Below are positions 7,642 to 57,638 of a stretch of 64,000 nt of DNA, piece after piece. The DNA is taken from contig NZ_SOQZ01000001.1 of the NCBI RefSeq assembly GCF_004366715.1, forward strand, positions 1 through 64,000, read 5' to 3'. This stretch comes from Meridianimaribacter flavus. Lineage in GTDB: Bacteria; Bacteroidota; Bacteroidia; Flavobacteriales; Flavobacteriaceae. The notes beneath the pieces were generated by a model. It had not been told where the DNA came from and made no database searches. It saw only the letters and a list, made by a program, of their open reading frames with translations. The position numbers were made by a program, and so were the translations under genes. Each line of letters starts with the position of its first letter. Position 1 is the stretch's first letter.

Positions 7642-8064
7642 TTAATTTAATTGTGTTTGGTACGCAACTGCATACATTTTTAATTGTTTTATCATACTTA
7701 CTAAACCGTTAGCTCTAGTAGGTGATAAATGTTCTTTTAGTCCAATCTCATCAATAAAATCTGTATTAGCTTCTATGATGTCTTTCGGATGTTGGTTTGA
7801 GAATACACGAATTAAAATAGCGATAATACCTTTGGTAATAATAGCATCACTATCTGCTGTAAAAACAACTTTGTCTGCTTCTAAATTGGCATGTACCCAA
7901 ACTTTACTTTGGCATCCTTTTATAATAAAATCGTCGGTTTTGTATTGTGCATCAATTAGTGGAAGTGTTTTACCTAAATCTATCATGTATTGGTAACGCT
8001 CTTCCCAATCATCAAACATTGAAAATTCGTCTATAATCTCGTTTTGTATCTCTTGTATTGTCAC
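7642..8064 (-). CDS. sufE: SufE, sulfur acceptor for cysteine desulfurase
   Basis: The predicted product is 140 residues with the SufE fold. The acceptor Cys is in IIKGCQSKVWV; it takes persulfide from SufS and passes it to the SufBCD scaffold. The frame extends upstream to a TTG at 8082, but that codon overlaps a -7 box (8080-8087) and the extra residues are not typical of the family. I therefore choose the GTG at 8062-8064, giving the usual N-terminus MTIQEIQNEIIDEF. It is separated from sufS by two inserted genes and appears to have its own promoter. Confidence 0.93.
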   Translation of the reverse strand: MTIQEIQNEIIDEFSMFDDWEERYQYMIDLGKTLPLIDAQYKTDDFIIKGCQSKVWVHANLEADKVVFTADSDAIITKGIIAILIRVFSNQHPKDIIEANTDFIDEIGLKEHLSPTRANGLVSMIKQLKMYAVAYQTQLN

Positions 8065-8079
8065 AGTCTTTCTTTTATG

Positions 8080-8110
8080 CAAAAATACGAATAGTTATAC
8101 AGCTTTTCAA
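8080..8110 (-). promoter_or_regulatory. Promoter of the sufE-DUF59 operon
   Basis: On the minus strand, a -33 TTG (8108-8110) is followed by 20 nt and a -7 box TATTTTTG (8080-8087). Spacing and boxes both fit the Bacteroidota consensus (TTG, 17-23 nt, TAnnTTTG). It abuts the stop codon of the META-domain gene and supports a GTG start at 8064. Confidence 0.6.
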
Positions 8111-8929
8111 TTATTTACCCATTTCGGCAGTTGCCAATAATTTTTCAATTAAAGGCGCAACATATTTATTAGGGTTTCCAGCATCAAACGCAGGTGTTTG
8201 ATAGGTTTTTCCTTTATATTCAATTATTAATCGACCTATTGGAGCACCATCATATTGATGAGCTTTTGAAGGTGATTCTAGTGTATTTAATTTTTCTAAA
8301 TCTAATTCTTGAATCAATTTATTTAAAGTAGCTAAATCTTCTTCAGAACACGTTTTTTTAGCTTCTTTTAAATCTCTTCCTTTTAGAGTAGTCATAATAC
8401 CATTTTGCAATTTTAACGAATTATGAAATCCTCTTGTAGTTGCAGAGTACTCAATTATATAATCGCTTTCTTGTGCAACTTTATTAGACTTTGTTTCGGT
8501 TTTAGAAGCTTTTAATATCACTGTGTCTCCACTCATAAAACTCAACTCTTCATTTGCAAAAACCAACGTTTGGGTTTTAGATAATGCACTTAGCATTTTT
8601 CGTTCAATTGCATTAATACTGTCCATACAAAATCGCTTTGTAGACATTAGAGGTCCAAAAGTAATTGAATCATTTTCAAACGTATAATCTCCCATAAATT
8701 GATTACAACCAGAATATCCTGATACTTTATTTGTCTTATTATCAAAGGAAATGGTCAAATCGTCAGGTAATGTCTCGTTTTCATCAATGGCTACTATTTT
8801 ATAAGTTCCTGATAACGTCACTTTTTCTCTATTCATAACGTTCTCATTACTATTTGTAAGCGAATCTTGTTTTGATGCTCCACAAGAGTTCAATAGTACT
8901 AGGTTTAATATGAGTAAAATTAATTTCAT
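8111..8929 (-). CDS. META-domain lipoprotein
   Basis: 272 residues. A lipobox-like LVLLNSC near residue 16 indicates a lipid-anchored envelope protein. Residues ~38-130 form a META/HslJ-like domain (GTYKIVAID...NKVSGYSGCNQFMGDYT...). The C-terminal half (residues ~150-272) is a second, unnamed domain (DYIIEYSATTRGFHNSLKL...) seen in Bacteroidota lipoproteins. The role is unknown; META domains are linked to envelope stress and tolerance phenotypes in other bacteria. It lies inside the otherwise contiguous SUF region. Confidence 0.82.
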   Translation of the reverse strand: MKLILLILNLVLLNSCGASKQDSLTNSNENVMNREKVTLSGTYKIVAIDENETLPDDLTISFDNKTNKVSGYSGCNQFMGDYTFENDSITFGPLMSTKRFCMDSINAIERKMLSALSKTQTLVFANEELSFMSGDTVILKASKTETKSNKVAQESDYIIEYSATTRGFHNSLKLQNGIMTTLKGRDLKEAKKTCSEEDLATLNKLIQELDLEKLNTLESPSKAHQYDGAPIGRLIIEYKGKTYQTPAFDAGNPNKYVAPLIEKLLATAEMGK

Positions 8930-20414: not shown

Positions 20415-20438
20415 CTTCAAAATTAATTGAACAAGACT

Positions 20439-21767
20439 ATGCAAGTTTTAAAATTTGGCGGAACATCAGTTGGGTCTATTGAAAATATGACCAACGTAAA
20501 AAACATTATTAATGATGGTTACAGAAAGATTGTAGTGCTTTCAGCAATGTCTGGAACAACTAATGCGCTGGTGGCGATTTCTGAAGCTATAAAACACAAT
20601 AATGTCAACCTAACACCTCAACTTATTGAGAATTTACGCTTAAAATATGTTGATGTTGTTAATGACTTACTGCAAGATTCGCAATTGCATAATGAAGCTC
20701 AAGCTTATGTTCAATCAGTTTTTAAATGTTTGTGTCTTTTAGCTAAAGAAACTCACACTGAACTTTTGTATAATAAAATTGTATCTCAAGGCGAGCTTTT
20801 ATCTACTTTCTTGTTTAGTAGATTTTTACAACAGGAAGGTATTAATGCACAATTGATTTCAGCACTCGATTTTATGCGTATCGATAAAAGCCATGAACCA
20901 GATAATTTTTACATCAAACAAAACTTAACTCGTTGTATTGAGCAATTACCACAAGCAGACATTTACATTACACAAGGTTTTATTTGTTTGGATTCTGAAG
21001 GCGAAGTTGCCAACCTACAACGTGGTGGAAGCGATTATACTGCAACTATTATTGGAGCTGCAATTAATGCTACAGAAGTACAAATTTGGACAGATATTGA
21101 CGGTTTTCATAATAACGACCCACGTTATGTTGAAGACACGCAAGCCATCTCAAACTTGTCGTTTGACGAAGCTGCTGAATTAGCTTATTTTGGTGCTAAA
21201 ATCTTGCATCCGCAAACGGTTATGCCAATTAGAGAGCAAAACATTCCGTTGCGTTTAAAAAACACTATGGCTCCACAAGCTCATGGTACTTTAATTACAA
21301 ATACTATTCATGGTGAAGGTATAAAAGCCATAGCAGCTAAAGATGGTATTACTGCTATAAAGATTAAATCGGCTCGTATGTTGTTAGCTCACGGATTTTT
21401 GAAAAAAGTCTTTGAGGTTTTTGAAAAATACGAAACTTCAATTGATATGATTACCACGTCTGAAATTGCAGTATCATTAACTATTGACGACACCTCTCAC
21501 CTACAACATATTTCTGAAGAATTACAAAAATTTGCCTCAGTTGAAATTGATGATTACAGAACCATTGTTTGTTTAGTTGGCAACAACATTGTGTTTCATC
21601 CTGATACCCCTAAACTGTTCCAGATTTTACAAGATGTTAATGTGCGTATGATTGCCTATGGTGGAAGTAATAATAATATATCACTATTGATAAATACTAG
21701 CGATAAAGTAGAAACTTTAAAAAAGCTACAGCGTTATGTTTTGGAGGAAAGAGCTGTTGTGGTTTAA
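20439..21767 (+). CDS. lysC: Aspartate kinase (monofunctional)
   Basis: 442 residues from the ATG at 20439; the frame extends to a TTG at 20427, but the kinase motif KFGGTSVGS begins directly after MQVL. It has the amino-acid kinase domain (residues ~1-290, with RGGSDYTATIIGAA and TDIDGFHNNDPR) and two C-terminal ACT domains (~300-442) for allosteric control. It makes aspartyl phosphate, the first step to lysine, threonine, methionine and diaminopimelate. No fused homoserine dehydrogenase is present. Confidence 0.95.
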   Translation: MQVLKFGGTSVGSIENMTNVKNIINDGYRKIVVLSAMSGTTNALVAISEAIKHNNVNLTPQLIENLRLKYVDVVNDLLQDSQLHNEAQAYVQSVFKCLCLLAKETHTELLYNKIVSQGELLSTFLFSRFLQQEGINAQLISALDFMRIDKSHEPDNFYIKQNLTRCIEQLPQADIYITQGFICLDSEGEVANLQRGGSDYTATIIGAAINATEVQIWTDIDGFHNNDPRYVEDTQAISNLSFDEAAELAYFGAKILHPQTVMPIREQNIPLRLKNTMAPQAHGTLITNTIHGEGIKAIAAKDGITAIKIKSARMLLAHGFLKKVFEVFEKYETSIDMITTSEIAVSLTIDDTSHLQHISEELQKFASVEIDDYRTIVCLVGNNIVFHPDTPKLFQILQDVNVRMIAYGGSNNNISLLINTSDKVETLKKLQRYVLEERAVVV

Positions 21768-21797
21768 TGTTATTAGGGTAAAACAAATTAAATACAA

Positions 21798-21832
21798 GGA
21801 GTTTATACAGAAAAGTCAAATTTATAAACTCC
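21798..21832. terminator. Inverted repeat at the 3' end of the NgoFVII-like gene
   Basis: GGAGTTTATA / TATAAACTCC, 10-bp arms with a 15-nt loop, covering the nuclease stop codon between two convergent genes. It may act as a terminator but has no strong T-run on either side. Confidence 0.35.
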
Positions 21833-22756
21833 GTCACCAAGTAAAGAAACTTCTATATCTGTTCGACCATAGCTTTCCAAATGATGTCTTCTTACAGGTT
21901 GTCCAAGAGGAACACCAATTCTATTTCTAATGTATTCACCTAATTCTGCTTTTACAGGAAAAGAACTGATTTGTTTTGGATAAATTACACCTTCAACGGG
22001 TTGCGAGCCTTCCAAAAGACCTTCCATAGTTAAACCATCATCCCAAATTATCTCAATAGAATCATTGTGCCTTTGCATTCGTCCTCTACCATCAACTTCA
22101 AGCGGGTTAATTTGTTTTGGCGGAAAAAGATTTGGAAAATCCCTAATATGACTTGTTCTTAAAGCTATGTATGCATCGTTTGGTGTTGTATGATTATTAG
22201 GGTTTTGTCCCCAATTTAATCCTGCTGCATTTTGAACTTCTCCGTTTCTACCTAATAATGTCATTAAACAATGGTCAAATTGTTCACGTTCTTCTACAAC
22301 TCTTTCCATTCCAACTTCTAAACAAGAAATTGAGTTGTTTAAAATATGAGCTATGTAGTCATTTAAAGGTCTGAATGTATCAAAGGTGGTTTCAGCTAAA
22401 ATTTCTCTAAAAGGTGTAGTTAATCCATTGACTGAAAAATTTGCAGAACCAATTAAAGCGTGAATAATATCACCTCTTCTTCGCCATACATAACACTTTG
22501 AATGTACTGGTAAATTCGAATAAAATATATTTAGATTATCTACTTCCCCTTGAATGTTTGTTAGTGAATTATGTAAACTTGGTCTTATGCCTTCTGAACC
22601 ATACATTCCATAAATTACAGTTGAGTTAAATGGCAGTTCTTCCAATCTTGCTACAGGTCTTGGTCCAAGATATCCTGAAAGTACGATTAGTTCATCAGTT
22701 TCGTGAAGTTGATGTCTATGAAATATTAGTTCTTCTAAATCTTGGGTATATAACAT
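21803..22756 (-). CDS. NgoFVII-like type II restriction endonuclease (PLD-fold)
   Basis: 317 residues with a phospholipase-D-type active site HSKCYV...IGSANFS (H85, K87, S104, N106), the arrangement of NgoFVII/BfiI-type restriction enzymes; such nucleases need no metal and form a composite dimer site. The C-terminal ~150 residues would form the DNA-recognition part. NgoFVII-family enzymes normally accompany a C5-cytosine methyltransferase. Here the immediate upstream neighbour is only a 95-codon remnant of one. The gene itself looks intact, with no internal stop or frameshift. Confidence 0.82.
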   Translation of the reverse strand: MLYTQDLEELIFHRHQLHETDELIVLSGYLGPRPVARLEELPFNSTVIYGMYGSEGIRPSLHNSLTNIQGEVDNLNIFYSNLPVHSKCYVWRRRGDIIHALIGSANFSVNGLTTPFREILAETTFDTFRPLNDYIAHILNNSISCLEVGMERVVEEREQFDHCLMTLLGRNGEVQNAAGLNWGQNPNNHTTPNDAYIALRTSHIRDFPNLFPPKQINPLEVDGRGRMQRHNDSIEIIWDDGLTMEGLLEGSQPVEGVIYPKQISSFPVKAELGEYIRNRIGVPLGQPVRRHHLESYGRTDIEVSLLGDGVYKFDFSV

Positions 22757-22758
22757 CT

Positions 22759-23046
22759 TTAATTGATAATTTCAGTTTCGAGTTTAAAAAGACCTTGTTT
22801 TTCAGTCATTTTTCCAATTAGTAATTCGTGTACTACTTCTGCTATTATTTTTGAAAACAGAGGCGGAACAGCATTTCCAATCATTTTGTATTGGTCACCT
22901 TTTGAACCCAAAAACTCAAAATCATCATCAAAAGTTTGTAATCTAGCAGCTTCCCTAACTGTTATTGAACGAGCTTGCTCTGGGTCAGGATGAATATGTC
23001 TTAAACCGTCTAAAAAGCTGGCATATTCAATGTGACTTGAGTATTT
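22759..23046 (-). pseudogene. 3' remnant of a DNA (cytosine-5) methyltransferase
   Basis: An open frame of 95 codons without a start codon, closed upstream by an in-frame TAA at 23047-23049. The translation contains the C5-methyltransferase motifs IX (ARSITVREAARLQTF) and X (YKMIGNAVPPLF), the normal C-terminus of such enzymes. Motifs I, IV, VI and VIII are absent. It lies 2 bp upstream of the NgoFVII-like nuclease, so it is probably what is left of that enzyme's cognate methyltransferase. It is not the missing end of the neighbouring methyltransferase, because both carry their own motif IX. Confidence 0.85.
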
Positions 23047-23064
23047 TTATAGAAAAGTTTAATT

Positions 23065-23259
23065 ATGATAAAAATAGGTAGAGCTATAGAAGGAATATCT
23101 CTTAATGGCAAAGAATGGTTATTAGACTCAAATAATGAGCTAATGACTTTTGATTCTGTTAATGATGCTAAAGAGTTTCTGAAGGAAAATGGTTTTGACA
23201 GCCTTTCAGAAGATGAATTAGAAGATGCTTTTTTCTATGAAGAAGTAGAAGTTAACTGA
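23065..23259 (+). CDS. Small acidic protein of unknown function
   Basis: 64 residues, strongly acidic in its C-terminal half (SLSEDELEDAFFYEEVEV). Good codon structure and an ATG start suggest a real gene. It starts 18 bp beyond the point where the methyltransferase remnant ends and overlaps the convergent HNH gene by 8 bp. I recognise no family. An anti-restriction or immunity role is conceivable from the context and the acidic, DNA-mimic-like composition, but this is speculation. Confidence 0.6.
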   Translation: MIKIGRAIEGISLNGKEWLLDSNNELMTFDSVNDAKEFLKENGFDSLSEDELEDAFFYEEVEVN

Positions 23260-24016
23260 TAAATATTTCTTTCCTGTGAAATTCTAAAAAGTCTTCTCTT
23301 GGAAAAAATTTTTCAGGTGTGTTAATGGTGTTACCCTCAAATTTTTTAATGAAGTTTTCAAAACTTGATTTGTCCGAAAGCTTTTCAAGTCTACTAGAAA
23401 AAGCAATTTCAAAATTATTTGTAATAGTCATTAAACCTTTATCAAATAGTTTATCATATAATGGCGAAAGGCATATACCATTGGAAGGATTCAATCTTTC
23501 TTTCTTATTAGCAGACCAGGGAATAATATGACTAGCAATTAACAGTTCGGGTAAATCAATATTTGAAACTGCACATTTTTGTGAATAAATATTCAGAACC
23601 ACCGTTCTAAAAAATGATTGATTCACTCGTGTTTTCACAACTCTTGAAATATCCTTACCCTCTTTTAGATTTTCCAGTTCTTTTATAGCTTGTTTTTGCA
23701 AAGAATCATTGCCCTCTTTTTCATTAAGTAAAATTTCACTTTCATAAATTAAATCATCCCAGTTATTCGAAAATTCTTGATAAATCTCTCTATCCAACTT
23801 TCCGGCATTTTTCATACCACTAACTCCTCTTTTTTGATGATACGGGTCAAGACTTGCAAAATTTACAAGTTTAAAAGCTACAGCGCTAGGTGTTCTTTGT
23901 ATGAGATTTGCGAGATGGATTACTTCTTTTGTACGTTGATTGTATTTACCAAATGGTATTTTACAATATAGATTAAAGGCTAAAATTAATTCTTCTCTTG
24001 TCCAGTTTCTTCTCAT
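23252..24016 (-). CDS. HNH endonuclease, probable type II restriction enzyme
   Basis: 254 residues. The C-terminal half carries an HNH_2-type nuclease motif: C148, then LLIASHIIPW (H163), RLNPSNGICLSPLYDKLFDKG with its Asn and His-equivalent positions. The N-terminal ~70 residues are a helical DNA-binding-like region (RTPSAVAFKLVNFASLDPYH), common in R-M-associated HNH proteins. It starts 2 bp after the methyltransferase stop, in an apparent XRE regulator - methyltransferase - nuclease operon. The nuclease appears intact. Confidence 0.85.
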   Translation of the reverse strand: MRRNWTREELILAFNLYCKIPFGKYNQRTKEVIHLANLIQRTPSAVAFKLVNFASLDPYHQKRGVSGMKNAGKLDREIYQEFSNNWDDLIYESEILLNEKEGNDSLQKQAIKELENLKEGKDISRVVKTRVNQSFFRTVVLNIYSQKCAVSNIDLPELLIASHIIPWSANKKERLNPSNGICLSPLYDKLFDKGLMTITNNFEIAFSSRLEKLSDKSSFENFIKKFEGNTINTPEKFFPREDFLEFHRKEIFIS

Positions 24017-24018
24017 TG

Positions 24019-25080
24019 CTACGCTGCGTTAGGGATTGAAGCAATTGTTTGAGCTCTTTTTGAGACGTTAGGAACAAAAAAGCGAGTGCGGAAAGCCCGA
24101 CCCTTTAGGGTAACGCCCAAAACAAAATCGTCTGGGAATGATTGTAAACGAGCATTCTCTCTAACACTAGGAACTCTATTCCATTTGTAATGAAAATGAT
24201 TTCTATGTCCTGTGTCGATTGTTTTTGAAGGTTTTAAGCTATGGTATCTAGTCCAAGCTTCATTGAATTTTCTTGAATCACCAACTCCTGGCGGTAAATC
24301 TTTGTGGTTACCACCTTCTGGTACTTGTGAAATAACATTAATAACGTGTTCGGTGTGTTTAGTTCCTAAATGATTATAAAGAACTTTATTACCATTACGC
24401 ATTGTTTTCTGATAATCACTAAATGCCTTTTTATCATATTCAAGCTTTTCATCACCTAAATCAGAAACTAAATCAGGTAAATCGCCAATTGCATCTTTAC
24501 AGCAAACATAACTTTCTGGTGAGTGAGTTGCTTCAGGGAATTCAAAAATTCCTAAATCCTTTCTTAATGCTACAAAAAATACTCTTTTTCTTATTTGTGG
24601 AACTCCATAATCTGGTGCATAAAGTAATTTTGGGTTGCAGTTATAGCCCATTTTTTCACAAAGTTCAATTATTTCTTTTTTCGCTTTGCCACCATAAAGA
24701 GTTAATAGACCTGGAACATTTTCTATAATAATAGCCTTTGGGTTTACTTTTTCCGCAAGTTTGAAAACAGAATAAAAGAGCGAATTTCTTTCATCATTTT
24801 CTTTTCTAGAGCCAGTTAAAGAAAATCCTTGACAAGGTGGACCTGCAATGATTACATCTACTTTGTTATTGTTCGTTACTTCAATTATTTTGTCAATTGA
24901 AGAATCTTCGTGAAGGTCTAGTAATAATGATTTGGAATTATTGTGGTTTTTCTCGAATGTTTTTAATGCAATTTCGGTATTATCAACTCCAAGTAAAACG
25001 TGAAAACCTGCTTGCTGAAATCCATATGAAAATCCTCCGCAACCTGAAAATAAGTCTATTGCTGTAAATTTTTTACTCAT
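24019..25080 (-). CDS. DNA (cytosine-5) methyltransferase with replaced C-terminus
   Basis: About 353 residues (start ATG at 25080; an ATG at 25086 gives two more). Counted from 25086, motifs I DLFSGCGG (11-18), IV AGPPCQGFS with catalytic C85, VI ENVPG (122-126), VIII QIRKRVFFVA (164-173) and IX RVPSVRENARLQSF (304-317) are all present. Motif X (GNAVPP), which completes the AdoMet pocket, is missing. From about residue 324 the frame runs through a dispersed repeat (24026-24118) and the last ~31 residues are repeat-encoded. The enzyme is therefore truncated and may be inactive. Confidence 0.88.
   Translation of the reverse strand: MSKKFTAIDLFSGCGGFSYGFQQAGFHVLLGVDNTEIALKTFEKNHNNSKSLLLDLHEDSSIDKIIEVTNNNKVDVIIAGPPCQGFSLTGSRKENDERNSLFYSVFKLAEKVNPKAIIIENVPGLLTLYGGKAKKEIIELCEKMGYNCNPKLLYAPDYGVPQIRKRVFFVALRKDLGIFEFPEATHSPESYVCCKDAIGDLPDLVSDLGDEKLEYDKKAFSDYQKTMRNGNKVLYNHLGTKHTEHVINVISQVPEGGNHKDLPPGVGDSRKFNEAWTRYHSLKPSKTIDTGHRNHFHYKWNRVPSVRENARLQSFPDDFVLGVTLKGRAFRTRFFVPNVSKRAQTIASIPNAA
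24026..24118 (+). repeat. Dispersed GCGTTA...TAACGCCC repeat, copy 1
   Basis: A 93-bp element bounded by GCGTTA and TAACGC, i.e. inverted ends. Shared blocks with copy 2 (56110-56185) include GCGTTAGsGATTGmAGC, GAGCTC, GCGGAAAGC and GTAACGCCC. It lies inside the 3' end of the C5 methyltransferase frame and supplies its stop codon region. It is GC-richer than its surroundings and could form a structured RNA or hairpin. Confidence 0.7.
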
Positions 25081-25405
25081 TGTCAAAATTGAATTGTCCT
25101 TGTTTTGTATTAGTGTTTTTCAAATAATTAGCTGTATCCTCTGCAACGGAAAAAATGGAATCCGAACATTTATATTTGAATGCTTCTCTTGCAAATTTGT
25201 CAGCGAAAAATAGGTCGGTTATTAGTTGTAGTTCGATATTAAATAACTTTGAAAGTTCTTTTAGTTTAGATTTGCTAAATTTTTGACTACCATTTTCGAT
25301 TCGACTTATAGCACTCGTATTTATTCCGATTTTTGCTCCAAATTCAGTTTGTGTCCACTCTCGTTTCTCTCTTTCAGTCTTTAAAAAATGTCCGAAACTT
25401 GCCAT
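25073..25405 (-). CDS. XRE-family regulator (C-protein-like)
   Basis: 110 residues. Residues ~5-60 form an HTH_3 domain (WTQTEFGAKIGINTSAISRIENG); the tail is longer than in minimal C proteins and acidic at its end. It lies directly upstream of the methyltransferase and overlaps its 5' end, the classic place for a controller that delays nuclease expression in type II R-M systems. Two 9-bp palindromic sites between its promoter and start (25412-25436) are good autoregulatory operator candidates. Confidence 0.85.
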   Translation of the reverse strand: MASFGHFLKTEREKREWTQTEFGAKIGINTSAISRIENGSQKFSKSKLKELSKLFNIELQLITDLFFADKFAREAFKYKCSDSIFSVAEDTANYLKNTNTKQGQFNFDNE

Positions 25406-25411
25406 GTTTAT

Positions 25412-25436
25412 GATTTAATCAAAAAATGATTTGATC
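25412..25436 (-). promoter_or_regulatory. Paired operator candidates for the XRE regulator
   Basis: GATTTAATC (25412-25420, a perfect GATT-T-AATC palindrome) and GATTTGATC (25428-25436), start-to-start spacing 16 bp, lie between the predicted transcription start and the regulator ATG. Binding here would block transcription. Confidence 0.5.
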
Positions 25437-25445
25437 TATTTTTAG

Positions 25446-25479
25446 CAAATGTATAAATAATTTGCGATTTTTAGGTCAA
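25446..25479 (-). promoter_or_regulatory. Promoter of the R-M operon
   Basis: On the minus strand a -33 TTG (25477-25479) is followed by 23 nt and -7 TACATTTG (25446-25453). Both boxes and the spacing fit the Bacteroidota consensus. Confidence 0.55.
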
Positions 25480-25492
25480 CCTTTTTTCTATA

Positions 25493-25714
25493 TTACCTCT
25501 TATAAATCGCTCCAGTAGCAAAATCAACAATAAGACCAGGTGCAAAAAGTAGAATATCTGCAATAAGCCATCCCACTCTAACATCGCGTTGTTGTTGTCC
25601 TGGTGCAGGTTTTGTTTTTTGACTCGATGAAATTGGTCCACCTAAAATAGTGGCACATCCTGTGGTGCTAAAAAGCAAGCTTAAACAAAGTAAGCCTATG
25701 CAAATACGTTTCAT
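25493..25714 (-). CDS. Small lipoprotein
   Basis: 73 residues. The lipobox (LFSTTGC, Cys20) is followed by ATILGGPISSS and a hydrophobic segment (LIADILLFAPGLIVDFATGAIY), the pattern of small Bacteroidota lipoproteins of unknown role. It starts 20 bp after the pepP stop on the same strand and is likely co-transcribed with pepP. It marks the right edge of the R-M island. Confidence 0.8.
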   Translation of the reverse strand: MKRICIGLLCLSLLFSTTGCATILGGPISSSQKTKPAPGQQQRDVRVGWLIADILLFAPGLIVDFATGAIYKR

Positions 25715-25734: not shown

Positions 25735-27027
25735 TTATGCGTTCATCAACTCCTCAATCTCTTCTGCTTCAATTGGGATATTACCCATTAAGTTAAAAGG
25801 TTCTCCGCTTTCTTGGATTACCACATCATCTTCCAAACGAATACCAAGCCCTTCATCTGGAATATAAATACCAGGTTCTACGGTAAAGACCATGTTGGCT
25901 TGCATTGGTTCGTGTAGTAAACCATAATCGTGCGTATCTAAACCAATATGGTGACTGGTACCATGCATAAAGTATTTTTTATACGCAGGCCAATCAGGAT
26001 TTTCGTTCTGCACATCAGCTTTATCCAATAGTCCAAGACCTAATAATTCAGAGGTCATGAGCTTACCAACTTCAACATGGTAGTCTGCCCAAATAGTTCC
26101 TGGAACCAATAGTTTAGTCGCTTCATTTTTTACGCGTAACACTGCATTGTAAACCGCTTTTTGGCGTTCAGTATACTTTCCGTTTACAGGAATGGTACGG
26201 CTTAAATCACTAGAGTAATTCGCATATTCGGCAGCTGTATCAAACAGGATTAAATCTCCATCTTTACACTGTTGGTTGTTTTCAATATAGTGCAATACAT
26301 TAGCATTGTTTCCTGAAGCGATAATTGGTGTATACGCAAAACCTTTAGAACGATTTCTTAAGAATTCGTGCATCATTTCAGCTTCAATCTCAAACTCCCA
26401 AACACCAGGTTTCACAAACCCTAATACTCTACGAAACGCTTTTTCGGTAATATTACAAGCCTGCTGCATGAGTTCAATTTCTATTGGGTCTTTTACTGAG
26501 CGTAAACGTTGTAAAATAGGATTACTCTTGGCTACTGAATGCGCAGGATATTTATCTTTAAGCCATTTAGTAAAACGGTCTTCGCGTGTTTCAGTTTCTA
26601 CATTGGCTCTGTAATGTTCATTAGTATTTATATAAACCGTATCGCATTGCGTCATGACTTCGAACATAATTTTCTCTAAGTCTTGTAACCAATACACGGT
26701 TTTGATTCCGCTAGTTGTAAAAGCGGCTTCTTTTGTTAGTTTTTCACCTTCCCAAACTGCAATATGCGCGTTGGTTTCTTTTAAGAATAACATTTCACGA
26801 TGTTTAGGATTTGGACAATCAGGGAAAAGCACTAAAATGCTTTCTTCCTGATCTACTCCACTTAAATAAAAAATGTCTCTATGTTGCTCAAAAGGCATCG
26901 TGCTATCTGCACTTACAGGGTAGATGTCGTTACTATTAAAAACCGCCAAACTACTTGGTTTCATTTGCGATATAAAATTTTTACGGTTTTTTATAAAAAG
27001 TTTGCTATCTATTGGATGATATTTCAT
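25735..27027 (-). CDS. pepP: Xaa-Pro aminopeptidase
   Basis: 430 residues. The N-terminal creatinase-like domain (~1-170) is followed by the pita-bread M24 domain with the five metal ligands in LFDTAAEY, YSSDLSR, HGTSHHIG, FTVEPGIYIP and IRLEDDVV. It releases N-terminal residues that precede proline. Length is typical and there is no signal peptide. It is alone apart from the small downstream lipoprotein gene. Confidence 0.95.
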   Translation of the reverse strand: MKYHPIDSKLFIKNRKNFISQMKPSSLAVFNSNDIYPVSADSTMPFEQHRDIFYLSGVDQEESILVLFPDCPNPKHREMLFLKETNAHIAVWEGEKLTKEAAFTTSGIKTVYWLQDLEKIMFEVMTQCDTVYINTNEHYRANVETETREDRFTKWLKDKYPAHSVAKSNPILQRLRSVKDPIEIELMQQACNITEKAFRRVLGFVKPGVWEFEIEAEMMHEFLRNRSKGFAYTPIIASGNNANVLHYIENNQQCKDGDLILFDTAAEYANYSSDLSRTIPVNGKYTERQKAVYNAVLRVKNEATKLLVPGTIWADYHVEVGKLMTSELLGLGLLDKADVQNENPDWPAYKKYFMHGTSHHIGLDTHDYGLLHEPMQANMVFTVEPGIYIPDEGLGIRLEDDVVIQESGEPFNLMGNIPIEAEEIEELMNA

Positions 27028-56109: not shown

Positions 56110-56185
56110 GCGTTAGCGATTGCAGCATTGTTGGAGCTCCTCAAAGAGAGCGACTGCGGAAAGCGCGACCCTTGTGGTAACGCCC
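56110..56185 (+). repeat. Dispersed GCGTTA...TAACGCCC repeat, copy 2
   Basis: A 76-bp relative of 24026-24118 with the same ends and internal blocks (GATTGCAGC, GGAGCTC, GCGGAAAGC, GTAACGCCC). It lies 10 bp beyond the pyk stop, next to the terminator. Confidence 0.7.
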
Positions 56186-56195
56186 AAAAAATAGT

Positions 56196-57638
56196 TTAAA
56201 AACTACAGCTTGTAATTTCAGTAACTCTTAGTGTATTTACCATACCTTTTTCTTGTATAGGCATTGCAGCTAGACTTACCAGCATATCTCCTGTTTCTAG
56301 ATAGCCTTTTTTACAGGCAATAGCGTTAACGTCTTCAATGGTTTCATCTGTACTTACAAACTTGTCGTAATAAAACGCTTTAACTCCCCAAAGCAAGCTT
56401 AATTGTGTTAAAATACGTTTGTTGGATGTAAATACCAAGATGTGAGAACTTGGTCTCCAAGCCGAAATTTGAAACGCTGTGTAACCACTATTGGTTAATG
56501 TAGAAATGGCTTTGGCATCAATTTCGTTTGCCATATGTGCTGCATGGTAGCAAATAGATTTTGTAATGTAACGCTTGGTACGAATGTGTGGTGGCGATTG
56601 TGGTACTTGTATAAGTGGCGAATCTTCAACACTTCTAATAATGTTTGCCATTTGCCTAATAACTTGTACTGGATAACTCCCAACCGATGTTTCTCCTGAA
56701 AGCATTACTGCATCTGCTCCATCCATAACCGAGTTTGCCACATCGTTAACCTCAGCACGTGTTGGTGTTAAACTAGAAATCATGGTTTCCATCATTTGCG
56801 TAGCAATAATTACAGGAATTCTTGCGCGTTTTGCACGTAATACCAATTGCTTTTGGATAAGCGGAACTTCCTCGGCAGGAATTTCTACACCTAAATCACC
56901 ACGAGCTACCATTAATCCGTCGCAATAGGCAACAATTTTATCGATATTCTCAACAGCTTCAGGTTTTTCAATCTTAGCGATAATTGGAATTTTATGCTCG
57001 CTATGTTCTTTGATAAGTTCTTCAAGCTGAATTAAATCTTCAGCGTGACGCACAAAGGATAACGCAATCCAATCTACTTGCATTTTTATTGCAAAAATGG
57101 CGTCTTCAATATCCTTTTCAGTAAGTGCAGGTTGCGAAATATTGGTGTTAGGAAGGTTAACTCCTTTTTTAGATTTTAAGGGTCCACCTTGAATAACGCG
57201 TGCTTTTACTTCCGATTTTTTATCGGTTGAAACCACTTCAAAAATTAATTTTCCGTCGTCTAAAAGTATGCGTTCTCCTGGTTTTGCATCTTGTGGAAAA
57301 CTGTCATAAGTCATGTAAACACGCTCTTTTGTGCCTTCAAAACGCTTTCCGGTTGCAAAAATAATTTCGTCACCTTCATTAACGATGACTTCGCCTTTCA
57401 TTACGCCAACACGAAGTTTTGGTCCTTGCAAATCACCTAAAATGGCTGCATTGTATCCAAACTCATCGTTAAGCTCTCTTATCATTTTTATGCGCTGTTC
57501 AACATCTTTGTAGTCGGCATGTGAAAAGTTAATTCTAAACACATCAACACCTTCCTCTAGCATGCCTTTTAAAACATCTTTTGTACTGGTTGCTGGTCCT
57601 AATGTTGCTACTATTTTGGTTTTCTTTCTTTTTGGCAT
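56196..57638 (-). CDS. pyk: Pyruvate kinase
   Basis: 480 residues with the TIM-barrel motifs (TKIVATLGPAT, DGLMVARGDLGVEIP, VIIATQMMETMI, MDGADAVMLSGETSVG) and a C-terminal regulatory domain of ordinary length. It converts PEP and ADP to pyruvate and ATP. It starts 3 bp after the IPExxxVDY gene and is the last gene of the acpP-fabF-rnc run. Confidence 0.97.
   Translation of the reverse strand: MPKRKKTKIVATLGPATSTKDVLKGMLEEGVDVFRINFSHADYKDVEQRIKMIRELNDEFGYNAAILGDLQGPKLRVGVMKGEVIVNEGDEIIFATGKRFEGTKERVYMTYDSFPQDAKPGERILLDDGKLIFEVVSTDKKSEVKARVIQGGPLKSKKGVNLPNTNISQPALTEKDIEDAIFAIKMQVDWIALSFVRHAEDLIQLEELIKEHSEHKIPIIAKIEKPEAVENIDKIVAYCDGLMVARGDLGVEIPAEEVPLIQKQLVLRAKRARIPVIIATQMMETMISSLTPTRAEVNDVANSVMDGADAVMLSGETSVGSYPVQVIRQMANIIRSVEDSPLIQVPQSPPHIRTKRYITKSICYHAAHMANEIDAKAISTLTNSGYTAFQISAWRPSSHILVFTSNKRILTQLSLLWGVKAFYYDKFVSTDETIEDVNAIACKKGYLETGDMLVSLAAMPIQEKGMVNTLRVTEITSCSF

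Follow-up and report, generated by a model that had tools for sequence, protein, structure and literature searches.

The DNA analysed, called the window here, is a stretch of 64,000 nucleotides from the genome of Meridianimaribacter flavus (3.2 Mb, a draft of 14 contigs, 99.99% complete), and the locus described sits within a 1.05-Mb contig. It is an island on the minus strand whose neighbours are an aspartate-kinase-like gene (20427-21767) and an aminopeptidase-P-like gene (25735-27027), with a 73-aa ORF between the island and the latter gene. Its features, in descending coordinates, are:

25446..25479, minus strand: promoter-like TTG-N-TAnnTTTG motif upstream of the HTH gene, from a pattern scan
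25073..25405, minus strand: 110-aa HTH regulator, first gene of the module (PF01381, E 8.7e-14)
24119..25086, minus strand: M1', C5 methyltransferase fragment without motif X (PF00145, positions 1-298 of 324)
24026..24121, minus strand: dispersed GGGCGTT...CTAACGC repeat, fused in frame to M1', the stop of the tail lying 2 nt before the HNH ATG
23012..24118, no strand assigned: replacing segment of 1,107 bp, in the place of 1,096 bp in the intact locus L008
23252..24016, minus strand: 254-aa HNH nuclease (HNH_2; PF13391, E 2.4e-12)
23065..23259, plus strand: S64, a 64-aa acidic ORF overlapping the HNH end by 8 bp on the opposite strand
22759..23011, minus strand: M2', final ~84 codons of a second C5 methyltransferase, motifs IX-X (PF00145, positions 270-322 of 324)
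21803..22756, minus strand: NgoFVII-family PLD + B3-like restriction nuclease, a complete single open frame of 317 aa (PF09565, PF20731)

The nuclease matches PF09565 with E 2.9e-33 and PF20731 with E 1.3e-26 and has the site residues H85-S-K87 and G103-S-A-N106, so the sequence-only reading was right that the frame is complete with its H-x-K...GSxN site. With a PF09565 PLD domain holding HxK and GSxN and a PF20731 B3-like domain, it is a member of the NgoFVII nuclease family. The best PDB relative of the family profile is R.NgoAVII (4rct, E 1.8e-14), and the window sequence alone has no PDB match at E up to 1. A disabling change of the active site, which would have counted against the sequence-only reading, is not visible: the window nuclease departs at 0 of the 36 columns that are invariant in 13 other family members, and likewise at 0 of the 52 columns common to at least 12 of these 13. 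A conspicuous S for R near the C-terminus falls in a variable column and was rejected as an inactivating change.

Both methylases are fragments. The open frame of M1' covers 24019-25086 and its methylase homology ends at 24119, the last ~32 residues being read from the dispersed repeat; motif X is missing, in keeping with the truncated methyltransferase noticed earlier at 24-25 kb. The open frame of M2' (22759-23046, minus strand) has 95 codons and a stop, with no ATG, GTG or TTG before codon 46. It retains motifs IX-X as had been read from the sequence, although DNA homology to intact M2 ends at 23011, so that its first 11-12 codons are cassette DNA. A profile search of the 99.99%-complete genome for PF00145 gives two matches, M1' and M2', both broken. 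Thus the complete cognate methylase of a Type II restriction-modification system is lacking as far as C5 enzymes go, and the search for another complete C5 methylase that had been recommended at the outset comes out empty.

What the locus looked like before can be read from eight close relatives of the nuclease, found in one scan of the genome_contigs collection. The order M1-M2-nuclease is intact in seven of the eight loci (L008, L009, L010, L012, L013, L014, L015), both methylases standing before the nuclease (M1 356-362 aa, M2 397-419 aa). An HTH gene lies ahead of the module in four of the seven (L008, L009, L010, L014), and the L013 contig starts at M1. Two methylases of this kind and two HTH genes are also present on a Lactococcus plasmid (L091), where the nuclease points the other way. 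In L012 (Sphingobacterium gobiense) an extra 140-aa ORF at 8007-8426 lies between M2 and the nuclease; it is a lone NgoFVII B3-like DNA-binding domain (PF20731). The closest relative is L008, a locus in a Winogradskyella MAG, which is ~99% identical to the window on either side of the swap without gaps: 99.2% over 1,361 bp (25479-24119) and 98.9% over 1,209 bp (23011-21803). The shared stretch stops at the module edges. Within it, the HTH protein is identical in L008 and M1' DNA is 99% identical to intact M1 as far as 24119, and the promoter-like motif falls inside the alignment starting at 25479 and was thus kept from the intact module. TTG-N-TAnnTTTG is a promoter-like type of motif, and its presence is no evidence of function. 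The 1,096 bp lost relative to L008 comprise the M1 end and the first ~330 codons of M2.

Comparison with the intact loci changes how the island is divided. The sequence-only reading counted two nucleases and no complete methylase, which stands, as only PF00145 fragments are present; a division into two separate systems does not. M1 and M2 are parts of one module with one nuclease rather than remnants of two systems, and the HNH gene is an invader that arrived with the replacing DNA, not the original partner of M1. The HNH protein as cognate nuclease of M1 was ruled out, as no HNH gene occurs inside the module in the seven intact relatives. A survey of the phylum (395 genomes, 98 with a PF09565 match) gave seven other loci at E <1e-12 that were examined, the rest of the matches being less strong and for the most part in larger proteins. 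L099, one of these seven, is doubtful. In five of the other six a C5 methylase adjoins the nuclease and is not visibly broken in the piece read (the L096 piece ends inside), and in the sixth (L094/L128) the methylase is split by an insert. Since the surveyed loci mostly keep the methylase, a nuclease without a complete one is the exception in this small set. The split locus (L128 6103-8149, G565:C132) has a single C5 methylase interrupted after motif VIII by ~1 kb with a 255-aa NOV_C-domain ORF and an 81-aa ORF; its nuclease frame is intact and a Vsr gene adjoins.

The replacing segment has three parts, namely the repeat, the HNH gene and S64. The GGGCGTT...CTAACGC repeat occurs in at least 11 copies in the genome (150 of 584 candidate places were scored), and the copies with listed surroundings are mostly located between long ORFs. 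A second copy in the window (56110-56188) lies 7 bp after a pyruvate kinase gene (56196-57638, minus strand; PF00224). As a candidate integron attC site the repeat was set aside by eye, because its GTT and AAC ends are in opposite order. Rfam, run on window positions 20000-57000, gave three weak matches, all outside the island, and the repeat folds as a single strand no better than shuffled sequences do. The HNH protein is fitted over nearly its whole length by the PADLOC model PDLC04132 (E 5.3e-94). The match of its C-terminal half to NF045808 (phosphorothioate-dependent; E 1.7e-18) scores 66.8 bits, below the curated cut-off of 180, which places it outside that family. The C-terminal half of its family profile matches VcaM4I (6yex, E 1e-21), the N-terminal half being uncovered. 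An H-to-Y change in the HNH motif was rejected as a sign of inactivity, Y being present also in L061-L064 and L068. S64 contains 17 D+E and 5 K+R, has no Pfam, NCBIfam or PADLOC match at E 0.01, and was found in 1 of 247 genomes searched (M. flavus itself) and in no plasmid. Apart from HNH and S64 no gene was recognised in 23012-24118, where the other listed frames of at least 60 aa run antisense to HNH; no mobility enzyme was found there, so the segment is not an autonomous transposon.

The break is very recent. Between the nuclease genes of the window and L008 there are 6 synonymous and 2 nonsynonymous changes (p 0.002 for a nonsynonymous count this low), and the already broken M1' differs by 5 synonymous and 2 nonsynonymous (p 0.006). 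As the broken M1' shows the same substitution pattern, the constraint on the nuclease dates from before the break, which looks too recent for nuclease decay to be visible. The relatives' nucleases compared with that of the window give dN/dS of 0.02-0.09, most dS values being saturated. In the nuclease tree L010 and L011 are paired (support 100), and the window and L008 stay unresolved at the root (support 34) despite their 99.2% identity.

The same replacement is found again in L011, a contig binned as Saprospiraceae, with the layout HTH-M1-repeat-HNH-S64-nuclease. The cut in M1 falls in the T-run that is also cut in the window, the two positions being ~3 nt apart. On the right, the cassette reaches the beginning of the nuclease gene, with loss of M2 and of the nuclease start codon. 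The M1 tree unites window M1 with that of intact L008 (support 100) and L011 M1 with that of intact L010 (support 99), M1 dS being 0.025 for window-L008, 0.39 for L011-L010 and about 1.6 between the two groups. HNH (71% identity, dN/dS 0.08, dS near or at saturation) and S64 (78% identity, dN/dS 0.14, dS about 1.5) diverge between window and L011 as much as other genes of the loci, which makes two insertions indistinguishable from recombinational exchange of an old cassette; on either account the cassette arrived in two lineages separately or was lost from two. In two further genomes (L024 in G010, L047 in G183) the methylase cut is a C5 enzyme of HpaII type: it ends after motif VIII in the GGGCGTT repeat, with an HNH relative behind it; in L047 the methylase and HNH are both frameshifted as well, and no HpaII nuclease was found there. 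In L024 the HpaII nuclease follows HNH, its called ORF being without about 104 N-terminal profile positions. On their extent, the HpaII-type nuclease ORFs behind HNH in L024 (708-1484, profile positions 105-358 of 359) and L025 (711-1262, positions 186-359 of 359) are probably dead. L024 and L047 may be one event, so at least three cassette events are counted. All four fusions (window, L011, L024, L047) use the same repeat frame and end with a stop codon placed exactly 2 nt ahead of an ATG at the beginning of HNH, and this frame is the only fully open one in 3 of the 4 loci.

To place these cases, 38 loci with a good HNH relative were read (window, L011, L021-L026, L047, L061-L089), mostly with ~1.5 kb of flank; 11 of the 42 hits of one HNH search and the weaker hits L027, L029-L046 and L049 lie outside this count. 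The repeat adjoins HNH in five of the 38 (window, L011, L024, L047, L026), a weak repeat match ~600 bp from HNH in L063 being excluded. In L026 the repeat has a small ORF on one side and a Vsr gene on the other; it is downstream of Vsr, which has its own stop. Vsr genes lie beside HNH relatives in L026, L061, L078 and L080. A cut C5 methylase precedes HNH also in five loci (window, L011, L024, L047 and the gonococcal, NgoAXIII-like L088, the last without the repeat). Against a strict preference for methylases, the other 33 of the 38 have no methylase fragment before HNH in the piece read. The same point is made by six genomes (G409, G528, G571, G257, G393, G261) with a complete-looking C5 methylase within ~5 kb of HNH, which also speak against any general exclusion of m5C. 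The idea that HNH excludes C5 methylases is unsupported in general, PF00145 matches being present in 27 of 37 HNH-bearing genomes (M. flavus included) vs 25 of 36 without HNH. The 37 genomes are those with strong full-length hits, G040, G168, G183, G296, G299, G300, G544, G547, G586, G616 and the weaker hits of one HNH search being excluded. Matches above 300 bits occur in 0 of the 37 and 15 of the 36, by a post hoc threshold and confounded by taxonomy, since the second set is one family. Among viral contigs there was no confirmed relative of HNH or of the nuclease and no exact repeat-HNH junction, and five phage records have HNH matches, at <60% identity. In a limited literature search no title pointed to takeover of methylase genes by a repeat-HNH cassette, and an 11-base piece of the repeat occurs in two papers whose titles are unrelated.

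Taken together, we consider it probable that the locus is a recently broken HTH-M1-M2-nuclease module of NgoFVII/NgoAVII type, in which a repeat-HNH-S64 cassette replaced parts of both methylases and left the nuclease stranded and tolerated, most probably through poor expression or inactivity without a partner. The restriction-modification module would have been acquired horizontally. A cassette of repeat, HNH and small ORF has replaced the M1 3' end and the first ~330 M2 codons, joining M1 at a T-run in the frame where the repeat is open. Only 2 nt separate the stop of the fused gene from the start codon of HNH, whose translation may therefore be coupled to that of M1'. With both cognate methylases removed, the nuclease remains downstream, most probably tolerated because it is poorly expressed or because it is inactive without methylase or another partner. 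Loss of a methylase with retention of its nuclease is expected to be lethal. The sequence-only reading held that such an orphan should kill the cell unless inactive or protected by another methylase; the orphan state, itself of a known kind, was borne out, and the lethality only in part, given 74 systems with a full-length restriction gene and a possibly inactive (truncated or frameshifted) methylase and a PaeR7I methylase deletion that did not kill (the latter cited there), both from the accessible part of PMC3488263, and given the ATPase need of CglI and NgoAVII. The simplest explanation of survival would be absent expression or activity of the nuclease. Downstream nucleases are damaged in other cases, by start codon loss in L011 and shortened HpaII ORFs in L024 and L025. 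Against the same reading, the window nuclease has no visible break, and transcription into it is possible, since the promoter motif is retained and the minus strand of 21700-25500 showed nothing resembling a terminator. GCSGC as its target is a guess by family; the window holds 10 such sites, against 10.4 (maximal-order) or 19.6 (first-order Markov) expected, counts from which specificity is not deducible, and the sites would offer targets to a nuclease of this specificity if it were expressed and acted independently.

A rival reading, unlikely but not to be neglected, is that the nuclease is of the ATPase-dependent type and does no harm for want of its N-protein. For cleavage R.CglI and R.NgoAVII require both N-protein and ATP according to the accessible text of PMC4267653, the family profile, though not the window sequence alone, finds 4rct, and the Z1 domain PF10593 has 0 matches in the genome with a positive C. 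glutamicum control. The intact sister modules argue the other way: no Z1 occurs in the ten larger ORFs near those of L008-L010, L012, L014 and L015 (the L013 contig is too short), and none of the genes annotated near the Lactococcus module is named as N-protein. N-dependence is hence not simply transferable to the window nuclease, and the strong constraint on the sister nucleases suggests that the subfamily probably works without a linked N-protein. That HNH and S64 functionally replace the methylases, the acidic S64 inhibiting a nuclease, is improbable. Both are constrained between the window and L011, yet L011 keeps S64 beside an NgoFVII nuclease deprived of its start codon, so S64 is not kept against that nuclease, and the rarity of S64 in the genomes and plasmids searched also speaks against such a role. 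An active and expressed nuclease from which a methylase encoded elsewhere protects the cell would fit the intact frame and conserved residues and the kept promoter motif; with two PF00145 matches genome-wide, both broken, we think it hardly likely, and most probably tolerance is not owed to another C5 methylase, the search covering C5 enzymes and leaving m4C or m6A enzymes possible.

M.AquI is a C5 methylase made of two chains, and M1' and M2' might jointly form a functional split enzyme of this kind, M1' holding motifs I-IX and M2' motifs IX-X; the split L128 methylase, too, adjoins an intact nuclease. This is very unlikely, as the M2' frame has no start codon ahead of codon 46, M1' already has its own motif IX plus a foreign tail, and L011 has M1 cut likewise with no M2' detectable. 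That the draft state of the genome produced the arrangement as an assembly artefact has a negligible chance, since the same layout recurs with diverged sequence in the unrelated assembly of L011 and the locus lies inside its contig.

The preferred reading, a broken module with a stranded nuclease, leaves the nature of the cassette to be considered. A possible, though doubtful, generalisation is that the repeat-HNH cassette moves as a unit and has repeatedly captured the C5 methylase genes of restriction loci: it would enter at a T-run, fuse in the one useful frame, place the methylase stop 2 nt ahead of its own start codon, its nuclease thereby drawing on the expression signals of the methylase for translation, and, with variable downstream deletion, leave methylase-less nuclease loci behind. 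The repeated takeover is the part worth following. If it is true that repeat-HNH favours methylase genes, this would be a route converting restriction systems to another form of nuclease locus, and some members of the known class of solitary restriction genes would be accounted for by the preference.

Of the known systems, NgoAVII and CglI are similar to the window in that the nuclease has both domains (PF09565 + PF20731) and that C5 methylase genes are linked to it in the intact relatives. The window-type module differs in having two methylases, not one, which are broken in the window, and in the missing DEAD-Z1 N-protein, with PF10593 absent from the genome and not seen beside the intact relatives. 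VcaM4I, a modification-dependent HNH nuclease according to the accessible text of PMC7897488, is similar to the window HNH in the C-terminal half, and modification dependence of the latter is putative. NgoAXIII of Neisseria gonorrhoeae shares the arrangement of a truncated C5 methylase with an HNH gene behind it, which belongs to the family of the window HNH (39% identical); it differs in having no GGGCGTT repeat match, in keeping Vsr and in having no NgoFVII nuclease match in 10.7 kb. The available main text of PMC6789123 describes NgoAXIII as V plus a methylase remnant, and the term HNH is absent from it. The gonococcal locus (L088 3956-5744; NZ_CP119142.1 369359-380102, a chromosome-sized record listed as plasmid) reads as Vsr, C5 methylase remnant, 113-aa ORF and HNH gene. 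A further parallel is class ii of the solitary restriction enzymes as described in the accessible part of PMC3488263, to which the locus belongs: the nuclease is full-length, truncated methylases lie within 4 kb, complete orthologous systems exist elsewhere, and no cognate (C5) methylase is found in the genome. The same text discusses non-expression, inactivity and methylase dependence of such nucleases. The locus differs from that class in that the cause is visible, namely replacement by repeat-HNH-S64, with parallels in other genomes; as the break arose naturally and very recently (dS about 0.03 from its intact relative), it is a good place to test how cells survive such a loss.
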